Made by a program: the position numbers and the translations under genes. A DNA stretch of 41,224 nt from Bacteroidota bacterium (GTDB lineage Bacteria; Bacteroidota; Ignavibacteria; Ignavibacteriales; Ignavibacteriaceae). The DNA lies in contig JAKAJV010000076.1 of assembly GCA_021813585.1 (NCBI GenBank), positions 1 through 41,224 of the forward strand, written 5' to 3'. Under the pieces are notes generated by a model. The model worked only from the letters and a program-made list of their open reading frames with translations. It searched no databases and was not told the origin of the DNA. Below, one piece after another: positions 38,846 through 40,856 of the stretch; position 1 is the stretch's first letter; each line of letters begins with the position of its first letter.

Positions 38846-38861
38846 ACAGATACTTTGTTAG
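38829..38861 (+). pseudogene. Truncated 5' end of an ahsA1 gene
   Basis: An ATG at 38829, overlapping the arsR 3' end exactly as in coupled arsR-ahsA1 pairs, encodes MAKKNEQILC and stops at 38859-38861. The opening matches AHSA1 starts (compare MARKSD at 39671). The frame breaks where the minus-strand RelE toxin gene ends (stop at 38858-38860), so the toxin module seems to have replaced the rest. Confidence 0.65.
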
Positions 38862-39139
38862 TAAACTTCATCATGCGAACCTATATCAAGCAGAATGATT
38901 TCTTGAAGTGAAGTTGCTTGGTTTGTTATAATGGTAAAAATAATTCTAACATCATACTCAACGTAACATGCCCAGCATTCTTTAAGTTCGCCCTTAAGTT
39001 TATGTGTATGCAGTTGACGCATAAATGGGTCTTGCTGCAATAATGCTAATATAGAATAATATTTTTCTTTTTTTTGCGGAGTTTGGCGCAATATATTTTT
39101 AAGTGATCGCCTGAATTTTGAAGACCAGTGTAGTATCAT
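38858..39139 (-). CDS. RelE/YafQ-family toxin (mRNA interferase type)
   Basis: The 93-residue protein has the RelE fold pattern FRRSLKNILRQTPQKKEKYY, HKLKGELKECWACYVEYDVR and LLDIGSHDEVY. The conserved H, K, and R residues and the DIGSHDEVY ending fit the RelE/StbE-YafQ group, which cleave mRNA on ribosomes. It overlaps the antitoxin gene by 4 nt (ATGA). Unlike the toxin at 30125 it is intact. It ends convergent to the arsR unit and cuts its ahsA1 partner. Confidence 0.9.
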   Translation of the reverse strand: MILHWSSKFRRSLKNILRQTPQKKEKYYSILALLQQDPFMRQLHTHKLKGELKECWACYVEYDVRIIFTIITNQATSLQEIILLDIGSHDEVY

Positions 39140-39354
39140 TCTTCAGTTTCTAGTTCTTTGAACAAATCATCTACTGAACCGCTGTGAGATAATCCGGCTT
39201 TATATTCAGCCATTCCTTCTTTGACTGACTGGATGAGATTTTTTCGTTTTTCTTCTGTTAAGCGTTTATGTAAAATGTTAGCAAGAAGAATTTGTTCTTC
39301 AAGTGATAATTGTTCTGCCTGATCAAGTACTGAATTTAATGTTATATTTTTCAT
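39136..39354 (-). CDS. Antitoxin of the RelE-type module
   Basis: I start at the ATG at 39354 (72 residues); an in-frame TTG at 39375 is the alternative. The protein opens MKNITLNSVLDQAEQLSLEEQ and ends acidic (SVDDLFKELETEE), the usual form of the addiction-module antitoxins found with RelE-type toxins. It precedes and overlaps the toxin. The dispersed repeat at 39416-39564 lies about 60 nt upstream of the start, so it flanks the module's promoter. Confidence 0.82.
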   Translation of the reverse strand: MKNITLNSVLDQAEQLSLEEQILLANILHKRLTEEKRKNLIQSVKEGMAEYKAGLSHSGSVDDLFKELETEE

Positions 39355-39415
39355 TTTGTTCTCTATTGTGTCCAAATTTGCGTTTTAATGATGAGATAAT
39401 CAAGCTATTTCTTAA

Positions 39416-39564
39416 TTACTCAAGTTACGCAAAATTATAAAGCTTGAGTGTCATACCCGCGAAAGCGGGTATCCAAGATGCGAAAATATGATAAAAAATG
39501 GATTCCCACTTTCGTGGGAATGACAATGCGGACATCAAAATGTATTCCTGCGTAACATGAGTAA
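39416..39564 (+). repeat. MITE/BIME-like element with terminal inverted repeats and two REP-like hairpins
   Basis: The element begins TTACTCAAGTTACGCA (39416-39431) and ends TGCGTAACATGAGTAA (39549-39564), 16-bp terminal inverted repeats with one mismatch. Inside are two 25-bp palindromes, at 39450-39474 and 39500-39524, in opposite orientation. Each is a hairpin with a GAAA loop (the second read on the minus strand), and stem bases that differ between the two change in pairs, so pairing is kept. There is no coding sequence. No clear target duplication is visible. A second, oppositely oriented copy lies at 1-97. Confidence 0.85.
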
Positions 39565-39631
39565 ATTATATTAAAATACATTTGTTAAAAAACTCGAGTT
39601 AAAGTTTCGGCAAGATAATAAATATGTATCG

Positions 39632-39687
39632 GAAAATTCTTTGTTAAATTACAGGCTAAGGAGAAAAAGCATGGCAAGAAAAAGTGA
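39632..39687 (+). pseudogene. Relic of an arsR 3' end
   Basis: The sequence KLQAKEKKHGKKK followed by TGA at 39685-39687 repeats the end of the ArsR protein at 38507 (KLQAKGKKHGKKK). DNA similarity extends about 20 nt further upstream with a one-base loss. The first part of the gene is absent. Its frame overlaps the start of the ahsA1 relic at 39671, as in coupled arsR-ahsA1 pairs. Confidence 0.75.
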
Positions 39688-39890
39688 TACTCAAACAGAA
39701 ACAAAAGAATTGATCATAACCCGTATTTTGAATGCTCGTCGGGAACTAGTGTTCAAAACCTGGACTGATCCGAAAAATGATCATGAAGACAATTGCAAAA
39801 GGCGTTTCTGCTCAATCACCTAAAATGCTTGAAGGAATGGAGGCAGGCTGGAGTCAGTCATTCGACAAGCTTGCAAAAAGCTTAAAATAA
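39671..39890 (+). pseudogene. AHSA1 gene relic with internal deletion
   Basis: The N-terminal part from the ATG at 39671 is a normal AHSA1 start (TKELIITRILNARRELVFKT, then WTDPKN). Around 39777-39785 the frame changes, and the C-terminal part (KGVSAQSPKMLEGMEAGWSQ, then SFDKLAKSLK) runs to TAA at 39888-39890. About 70 to 80 residues between are missing. AAGGAG precedes the ATG, so a short truncated peptide could still be made. Confidence 0.8.
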
Positions 39891-39908
39891 TTTAAGGATA
39901 AAATCGGT

Positions 39909-40397
39909 ATGGAAAAGAAAAATCAAAACTTTGTTATTTTTGAAGAAAATGAGATTCCAAACAGAGAATTAAAAATCTCGCGGCTTCTCAACGCACCAAT
40001 TGAATTAGTCTGGAAGGTGTGGACTGACCCTGACCATATAAAAAATTGGTGGGGACCGAACGGCTTTACCAACACAATTCACAAAATGGACTTTAAGGTA
40101 GAAGGCGAATGGAATTTAACAATGCACGGACCGGACGGAACAAATTTTCCTAACAGAAGTATCTTCAAAGAAATTATCACACATAAAAAAATTGTGTTTG
40201 AACATTTCAACCCGCATTTTATTGCTACTCTTCTTTTTGAATCCAAAGGCGAAAGAACATTAATAAACTGGTCTTCGTTATTTGACACTTCAGAAATGAG
40301 AGAAACTTTAATCAAAGCGCACAAAGCTGACGAAGGCATGAAACAGAATGTTGAAAAATTAGAAAAATATTTGCAGCAACAGTTGAAGTTAAATTGA
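39909..40397 (+). CDS. SRPBCC/AHSA1-family protein
   Basis: The 162-residue protein has the AHSA1 opening LKISRLLNAPIELVWKVWTD, WWGPNGFTNTIHKMDFKVEG, and a C-terminal helix ending LEKYLQQQL. It is intact. Its N-terminal extension of about 20 residues is longer than in the copy at 32052. It starts 18 nt after the ahsA1 relic, so it may be the surviving member of a set of tandem copies. Ligand unknown. Confidence 0.9.
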   Translation: MEKKNQNFVIFEENEIPNRELKISRLLNAPIELVWKVWTDPDHIKNWWGPNGFTNTIHKMDFKVEGEWNLTMHGPDGTNFPNRSIFKEIITHKKIVFEHFNPHFIATLLFESKGERTLINWSSLFDTSEMRETLIKAHKADEGMKQNVEKLEKYLQQQLKLN

Positions 40398-40415: not shown

Positions 40416-40856
40416 ATGAAAGATGAACCATTTGTAATTGAGCGAACATTTAACGCTTCAGTTGAAAAAGTCTGGAAAGCAATTACGGATAAGAACGAAA
40501 TGAAGAAATGGTATTTTGATCTTGCCGAATTCAAACCGGAAGTTGGATTTGAATTCCAATTTTTGGGAGGAACCGAAGAAAAGAAGTGGCTGCATCTTTG
40601 TAAGATAACTGAAGTCATCGAACAAAAAAGGATTACTTACAGTTGGAGATATGACGGCTATGCCGGAATATCTTTCGTAACATTTGAATTATTTCCCGAT
40701 GGGATTAATACAAGATTAAAATTAACTCATGCTGGTCTGGAGAGTTTCCCGGTAGATATTGTACCTGAATTCAAAAAAGAAAATTTTGTTGAAGGATGGA
40801 ATTACATTATCGGTACTTCATTAAAAGATTATTTAGAAAAGAAAGAGCGCTTGTGA
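40416..40856 (+). CDS. SRPBCC/AHSA1-family protein
   Basis: The 146-residue protein opens FVIERTFNASVEKVWKAITD and has MKKWYFDLAEFKPEVGFEF, then ITYSWRYDGYAGISFVTFEL, the pattern of AHSA1-type START-like proteins. It ends EGWNYIIGTSLKDYLEK. It differs clearly from the preceding copy and so is not a recent duplicate. It overlaps the next gene by one base (TGATG), so the two are coupled. Confidence 0.9.
   Translation: MKDEPFVIERTFNASVEKVWKAITDKNEMKKWYFDLAEFKPEVGFEFQFLGGTEEKKWLHLCKITEVIEQKRITYSWRYDGYAGISFVTFELFPDGINTRLKLTHAGLESFPVDIVPEFKKENFVEGWNYIIGTSLKDYLEKKERL

Follow-up and report, generated by a model that had tools for sequence, protein, structure and literature searches.

An IS701-group MITE very probably carrying a CGTC-type REP pair of another system in an Ignavibacteriaceae genome

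Introduction

How a gene-less unit with terminal inverted repeats and two internal hairpins comes to be where it is, which enzyme acts on its ends, and whether its hairpins belong to it or to another system, are questions raised by a locus close to one end of contig JAKAJV010000076.1 (assembly GCA_021813585.1), from a member of the Ignavibacteriaceae. The window, i.e. the whole stretch of 41,224 nucleotides that was analysed, is this contig (C6 below), and the genome to which it belongs (G000) has 4,541,192 bases in 142 contigs. An initial annotation made from the window alone took the locus to be a mobilised structured element, with MITE-like ends and BIME-like inner hairpins. Sequence comparison supports such a reading, by way of copy number, ends, target duplications and paired changes, and also points to different origins for the ends and the hairpins.

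The element and its ends

Positions 39416-39564 read TTACTCAAGTTACGCA ... TGCGTAACATGAGTAA and had been described as a 149-bp unit whose 16-bp arms have one mismatch. The arms are as described, but 60 full copies define a true element of 145 bp with 14-bp arms, the consensus of both ends being ACTCATGTTACGCA. Since the bases outside 39418-39562 belong to the target duplication, the true ends lie 2 bases inwards of those first noted (Table 1). The two palindromes, in inverted orientation at 39450-39473 (+) and 39501-39524 (-), both match the hairpin motif; where their stems differ both sides differ and pairing is kept, and each, read in its own orientation, has a GAAA loop, all much as first noted. 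The window has three matches to this motif, versus none in 100 shuffles, the third (40-63) being in the truncated copy. Fold z-scores of the element are -7.6 as DNA and -8.7 as RNA, and since REP 1 and REP 2 are near-copies in inverted orientation, a single strand can alternatively fold end to end.

Table 1. Positions in the window of the complete element, its parts and the second, truncated copy
Feature	Position	Strand	Size and basis
Complete MITE copy	39418..39562	+	145 bp; ends set by 60 full copies and target duplications
Left terminal inverted repeat ACTCAAGTTACGCA (consensus ACTCATGTTACGCA)	39418..39431	+	14 bp; alignment of copies; end type shared with IS701-type elements
Right terminal inverted repeat ACTCATGTTACGCA	39549..39562	-	14 bp; alignment of copies
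Target duplication, left half TAATT	39413..39417	.	1 mismatch to right half in the window copy
Target duplication, right half AAATT	39563..39567	.	Flank comparison of copies
CGTC-1-type REP 1: tag TGTC, 8-bp stem ATACCCGC/GCGGGTAT, loop GAAA, tail CCA	39449..39475	+	Sequence, hairpin motif, anatomy per PMC3733652
CGTC-1-type REP 2 (inverted): tag TGTC, 8-bp stem ATTCCCAC/GTGGGAAT, loop GAAA, tail CCA	39499..39525	-	Sequence, hairpin motif; two-sided changes keep pairing
Second MITE copy, truncated inside REP 2 by the contig start	1..95	-	Genome and window motif matches, BLAST (L053)

An automated repeat search of the window reported no inverted repeat, the arms being established by hand and by alignment, and the end pattern has 4 matches in the window versus 2.4 expected, which is not above chance; it is the genome-wide counts that are decisive. 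Rfam gave no family in the window. Only a 48-codon chance reading frame and part of a 45-codon one overlap the unit, which in being short (145 bp), without coding capacity and bounded by terminal inverted repeats (14-bp arms) has the features of a MITE.

As to its surroundings, immediately to the right (39641-39900) there is a shortened AHSA1/SRPBCC-like gene, whose N-terminal part (39641-39823) stops early and, by eye, is followed by a C-terminal-like tail before 39890; its sequence suggests a pseudogene that has lost an internal segment, and two intact AHSA1 genes (39909-40397 and 40416-40856) lie next to it. Just to the left, on the minus strand (38858-39375), are two small overlapping genes of 93 and 79 codons that, by eye and from their translation only, resemble a toxin-antitoxin pair of type II.

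Copies, burst and target sites

One outcome that would have spoken against mobilisation, that only the two copies in the window exist, is not what was found. With 3 mismatches allowed, hairpin 1 has 103 matches in G000 versus 0 for the control, and the end pattern, with 2 mismatches allowed, has 174 sites versus 5 for its reversed control. Local BLAST over the fetched stretches yielded 103 distinct pieces, 60 of them full-length, and most partial ones end at a contig end. The check for copies genome-wide that had been suggested at the outset has thus given about 100, with shared ends, target duplications and paired changes. Ten of the 60 full copies are identical to the consensus, the median being 2 differences in 145 positions, and such near-identity is the signature of a recent burst; two full copies, with 15 and 23 differences, are clearly older. 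Many contigs of G000, e.g. C4, C5, C6, C7, C8 and C38, begin or end inside a copy, so that the 145-bp repeat is itself one cause of the fragmentation of this assembly.

The target duplication is of fixed length, as is expected for a MITE. An exact 5-bp duplication flanks 42 of the 57 full copies for which both flanks are available, versus a mean of 7.1 with shuffled right flanks, and is absent from the other 15. Duplications of 3, 4, 7, 8 or 9 bp were found for no copy and of 6 bp for five, and the 34 copies with one of 2 bp fit a TA-rich target. The logo of that target is T-TANTA-A, the target being TTANTAA. When the flanks are joined, just 3 of 57 sites are inside a reading frame of at least 100 codons, in comparison to 989 of 1140 random positions nearby. 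Sites between genes divide into 33 co-directional, 14 convergent, 4 divergent and 3 undecided, counts that stand without an intergenic-orientation baseline. The MITE was not found in phages, nor the composite, as an exact pattern, in viral contigs; in plasmids the hairpin part alone was matched, in three records.

A likely IS701-type source of the ends

The same type of end is present in relatives on elements with other interiors, of 93 bp and 406 bp (both G010), 235 bp (G004) and others, including in G013 a 148-bp element with three copies that have exact duplications. In G040 a 399-bp relic with the same ends still codes for the final portion of a transposase, which when read through is matched by NCBIfam NF049921 (IS701 family transposase) with E 3.9e-16. 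A Pfam search with this relic gave nothing useful, the C-terminus of a relic used as query in 59 genomes matched itself only, and the back-translated transposase tail led to two genome contigs, no viral contigs and no complete IS. When 80 genomes of the family were searched with NF049921, 31 had matches and 4 had matches above the curated cut-off (250 bits); in all four of the latter the elements carry ends of the MITE type. L270 scores 327 bits, and L274, at 185 bits, is under the cut-off.

IS701-type elements of 1,076-1,183 bp were delimited in five genomes of the window's family, G100, G003, G096, G089 and G006, and two, of 1,150 bp each, in Piscirickettsia salmonis plasmids. G003 and G006 are of the window's genus, the G006 element being under the curated cut-off of NF049921. 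The arms of these seven are of the type ACT[CG]A[ACT][GC]TTACGC[AG] at both ends (one starts with G), and four have an exact 5-bp duplication, which is absent in three.

In G000 itself there were no matches to NF049921, no complete IS701-type transposase gene and no matches to PF01609. The remains of such elements are nevertheless present at contig borders, where the starts of 80 of the 142 contigs were read in addition to the MITE loci. Contig C82 ends 127 bp inside an IS701-type element that is 97% identical to the IS of G006, and C34 starts with the final 125 bp of another (87%). An assembler would be expected to break off in this way at an IS that is repeated in the genome. With two resident contigs breaking off inside IS701-type elements, the mobiliser is likely to be a resident IS701-type transposase rather than a RAYT. 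The ends shared with autonomous elements are not identical in all respects: the two resident pieces carry the variant ACTGAAGTTACGCA, two bases off the ACTCATGTTACGCA of the MITE, and the IS that does have the end of the MITE (L272, in G089) is from another genus, with a last-base change in its left arm. A different parentage was considered among PF01609 (DDE_Tnp_1) elements of the genus, and at 30 loci among the matches listed none had a matching end pair around the transposase.

The inner hairpins as CGTC-1-type REPs

In the survey by Di Nocera and co-workers, CGTC-1 REPs are described as having a C/TGTC tag, an 8-bp stem starting AT, a 4-base loop and a CCA tail, and as occurring mostly as HH pairs, i.e. 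with the tags outside; TGTC is there a variant of the CGTC tag (PMC3733652). Both inner hairpins have every one of these features, and they are paired in the HH arrangement. Among 59 genomes, 30 contain the exact motif GTCATNCCC(N8)GGGNATC, for which the control gave 0 matches in all; G000 has 203 and the others 0-47. Across the examined loci there are 51 distinct hairpins, in which the third stem pair is T-A, A-T or G-C and the seventh mainly G-C or A-T.

The fold and its covariation, a check proposed at the outset, were followed through 18 composite elements (8 genomes, 3 genera; 3 of the elements from G000), an alignment that left out a partial contig-end copy (L088) and the degraded or unpaired L365-L368, L374, L375 and L090. 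In it, 93.0% of cells in arms and hairpins pair, where shuffles give 90.3% and sliding gives 25-44%. Changes on both sides were seen in 7 pairs versus 2.5 in shuffles, none of 500 being as high; further pair types, one of five measures of covariation, were not above shuffles (461 of 500 as high). The inner hairpins are probably a separate entity, a captured CGTC-1-type REP pair inside an IS701 MITE.

REP pairs outside the MITE

The examined loci contain 59 distinct REP pairs, 44 with IS701-type ends and 15 without. Of the latter, two (L087, L362) are decayed composites and three come from one REP field (L372). Three are of particular pertinence because of what surrounds them. In G000 a pair at C2:13403-13473 (L369, 204-274) is inside a different, 20-bp inverted repeat; in G027 another (L096, 1501-1571) is inside an 18-bp inverted repeat resembling it, with TGAGTYCACTC...AAAG in both genomes; and in G046 a third (L099, 1464-1527) is inside the 17-bp inverted repeat GAGACWTCTGAAAAATT. 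For each, none of 40 shuffles gave a repeat as good. Around the remaining pairs without IS701-type ends, those at L091, L092, L093, L095 and L371 included, there is no repeat clearly beyond chance. The REP pair may have been taken up more than once as a passenger by MITE-like elements; alternatively, inverted repeats may be its preferred targets.

In contig C1 of G051, a GIY-YIG gene together with a mixed CGTC REP field occurs twice, near 206023 (L330) and near 212474 (L372), at a distance of about 6.45 kb, an arrangement suggestive of block duplication.

GIY-YIG nuclease genes beside the REPs

One hairpin locus, L101, adjoins a GIY-YIG gene, and its protein served as query in 59 genomes. The gene of G000 (C129:2891-3172; PF01541, 58 bits) is flanked by hairpins on either side, of which the upstream hairpin has an imperfect end. 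Work in Nat Commun in 2025 reportedly describes Neisseria GIY-YIG nucleases, Ssn, that cut single-stranded NTS repeat DNA site-specifically; the combination of a GIY-YIG domain with repeats beside the gene, by which an Ssn-like gene may be known, is present in the C129 gene.

With the strict motif, the eight best matches among 30 loci inspected (67-100% identity, that of G000 included) all have hairpins, 10 of the 30 having them overall. With a looser motif within 300 bp, 71 distinct loci have REPs in 8 of 8 cases at 65% identity or more, in 18 of 29 at 55% or more (11 of these 29 homologues thus having none) and in 5 of 42 below 55% (Fisher p 1e-5 versus the group at 55% or more), the identity limits used (50, 55, 60 and 65%) having been picked after seeing the data. 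In a tree of 57 proteins, which is weakly resolved, the program warning of few columns and unsettled bootstrap, 20 of 22 REP-flanked proteins are in one group of 30 rows with support 82/86, and the REP-flanked label requires 7 changes in comparison to 17.8 in shuffles, none of 500 being as low. At the level of genomes, ten have a nuclease match below 1e-35, and these ten include all eight that have at least 10 exact hairpins, the limit likewise having been picked after seeing the data; this association holds at the 1e-35 limit (Mann-Whitney p 6e-7, with relatedness not corrected for and with the REPs beside the nuclease themselves raising the counts); at a limit of 1e-38 six of the eight stay in the nuclease group. 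One of these genomes, G024, has no REP near its best nuclease homologue (L338).

The association extends beyond the phylum. In 14 records from the plasmid collection, hand-picked from 32 to span genera, REPs are near the gene in 8, several being of another sequence type, e.g. GTCATCCTCGGG... in Rhizobiaceae and GTCATCCCCGCG... in Azospirillum; none is near the gene in the Planktothrix, Sinorhizobium K101, R. tumorigenes, Novosphingobium, Spirosoma and Sphingobium records. Around the homologue of N. gonorrhoeae (57% identity) the fetched 2.3 kb contain 16 hairpins. CGTC-type REPs are thus beside one group of small GIY-YIG nucleases in G000, in eight relatives and in several Proteobacteria. A tie of GIY-YIG genes in general to the hairpins was considered and rejected: at the 30 best-scoring PF01541 loci the strict motif is near the gene in 2, and the looser one is anywhere in the locus in 3. 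A PDB search gave only weak matches, to UPF0213 proteins.

Several features of these genes deserve mention in their own right. Similar small GIY-YIG genes are in tandem arrays in G013 (C1:2945594-2947066), G030 (C1:120132-122135) and G049 (C86:45030-46137), with spacings of about 315, 450 and 420 bp respectively. Two REP-flanked nucleases have a decayed look, L332 (G008:C129:1094-1375), in which the YIG motif reads CIC, and L336 (G001:C3:154352-154633), with two stop codons. On Planktothrix agardhii plasmid p1, a REP-less relative (L380) is between the gene for an MmeI-type restriction enzyme and drmA of DISARM.

Alternative explanations

That two inverted REP-like hairpins are in one unit, as in REPINs, and that Y1 transposases are widespread (in 54 of 59 genomes, with two matches in G000), would accord with the unit being a REPIN or BIME moved by a RAYT (Y1 tyrosine transposase), its terminal repeats being incidental. 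At 30 Y1-transposase loci, however, the hairpin occurs in none by the strict motif and in one by the looser motif, the two matches of G000 being outside those 30, and the tag is CGTC, not the GTAG of REPs that flank a Y1 transposase gene. RAYT-type movement is not known to make a target duplication, in contrast to what is seen with 42 of 57 copies. CGTC-type hairpins are moreover reported as not flanking tyrosine transposases (PMC3733652). This origin is highly improbable, and of the two kinds of transposase with matching ends that had been put forward at the outset, DDE and RAYT, it is the former, of the IS701 group and with the same end type, that is supported, there being no strict-motif hairpin at the 30 Y1 loci. 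A different possibility is that the hairpins are functional cargo, acting at the RNA level as transcription stops or mRNA stabilisers, with copies being kept by host selection. Avoidance of reading frames by the copies, their location mostly between co-directional or convergent and rarely divergent genes, and the conservation of hairpin pairing across the composites are what such selection could yield. However, the copies are near-identical, the target logo and duplications explain their location as transposition into AT-rich intergenic DNA, the orientation counts lack an intergenic baseline, and elements with the same end type but without such hairpins have spread as well; cargo maintained by selection is accordingly unlikely.

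Two enzymes might also be at work, the REP pair moving or inserting on its own, possibly together with the GIY-YIG nuclease and possibly with a preference for inverted repeats, so that the MITE is merely one landing place. Stand-alone and nuclease-flanking REPs do exist, there are more such REPs in genomes with a close nuclease, three pairs (L369, L096, L099) are inside other inverted repeats of 17-20 bp, and CGTC dimers are reported inside 41-bp palindromes in H. neapolitanus (PMC3733652). The inverted repeats that enclose those three pairs might just as well be ends of other MITEs, and the five further pairs named above, also without IS701-type ends, are devoid of a surrounding repeat beyond chance. 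To our knowledge no strand-transfer activity has been ascribed to a single-domain nuclease, which is a further point against self-insertion. We regard it as rather unlikely.

A composite element

The unit is very probably a non-autonomous MITE of the IS701 group that carries a REP pair of another system, i.e. a composite, a reading drawn from comparison of sequences. A DDE transposase of the IS701 group, produced from another place in the genome, would bind the 14-bp ends (of the ACTCATGTTACGCA type) and in trans insert the 145-bp element into TTANTAA, thereby giving the 5-bp duplication; a recent burst would have led to the roughly 100 copies, almost all between genes. That the mover is an IS701-type transposase is proposed because of the shared ends, the duplications and the IS remains found in G000. 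The REP pair would ride along as a captured passenger. Movement probably does not require it, given that elements whose ends are of this type but whose interiors differ have also spread. Gene neighbourhood points to the resident GIY-YIG enzyme as what may recognise the hairpins, in which case each insertion would add two nuclease sites.

On balance we favour, with the reserve due to a claim of several parts, the wider proposal in which the IS701-group ends move the unit, the inner CGTC pair is a site for the resident GIY-YIG nuclease, and the burst sowed some 200 such sites (203 compared with 0-47 in 58 relatives). In it CGTC REPs would be partnered by one GIY-YIG group in Ignavibacteria and Proteobacteria, and the pairs would ride repeatedly in varied MITE-like inverted repeats. 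Carriage by an IS701 MITE would be one concrete answer to how CGTC REPs get mobilised, and nucleases whose genes adjoin REPs in more than one phylum are a candidate partner enzyme for them. The genome also offers a natural experiment, in that a transposon burst has raised the number of REP sites well above that of relatives.

Comparison with known systems

IS-derived MITEs are well known. MITEAba12, with its relation to ISAba12, is similar in lacking a gene, in having terminal repeats shared with an autonomous IS, in its fixed duplication length and in the confinement of IS identity to the ends; it differs in its IS and in a 9-bp duplication, in comparison to IS701-type ends and 5 bp here, and has 90 copies over all genomes surveyed, whereas about 100 are in one genome here and the interior is a recognisable CGTC REP pair (PMC6382973). 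A precedent for a MITE containing a repetitive extragenic palindrome is QMITE2 of Coxiella burnetii, whose palindrome is a GTAG one, unlike the CGTC-type pair combined with IS701-type ends described here (PMC10969869).

REPINs with their RAYTs also feature paired inverted palindromes and a gene flanked by them, the distinction being a GTAG tag and a Y1 transposase there versus a CGTC tag and a GIY-YIG nuclease here. In the Neisseria Ssn/NTS case a small GIY-YIG protein similarly has surrounding repeats, and no MITE is known to be involved. A literature search with little subscription coverage turned up no paper linking GIY-YIG genes to REPs, nor MITEs of IS701.

The closest parallel for the hairpins is with CGTC-1 REPs and the neisserial dRS3, which share the TGTC tag, 8-bp AT stem, 4-base loop, CCA tail and HH dimers (PMC3733652). 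The 2013 survey has CGTC repeats without associated transposase genes and leaves open what mobilises them (PMC3733652), whereas here the REPs are inside an IS701 MITE and REPs are adjoined by one group of GIY-YIG nucleases. Its CGTC-1 dimers of H. neapolitanus are likewise placed regularly inside another inverted repeat, the 41-bp palindromes, for which the section on them reports no target duplications or IS (PMC3733652), whereas here the repeat is a mobile element and its IS group is identified. The novelty lies mainly in the composite, an IS701 MITE that amplifies the REP hairpins of another system.
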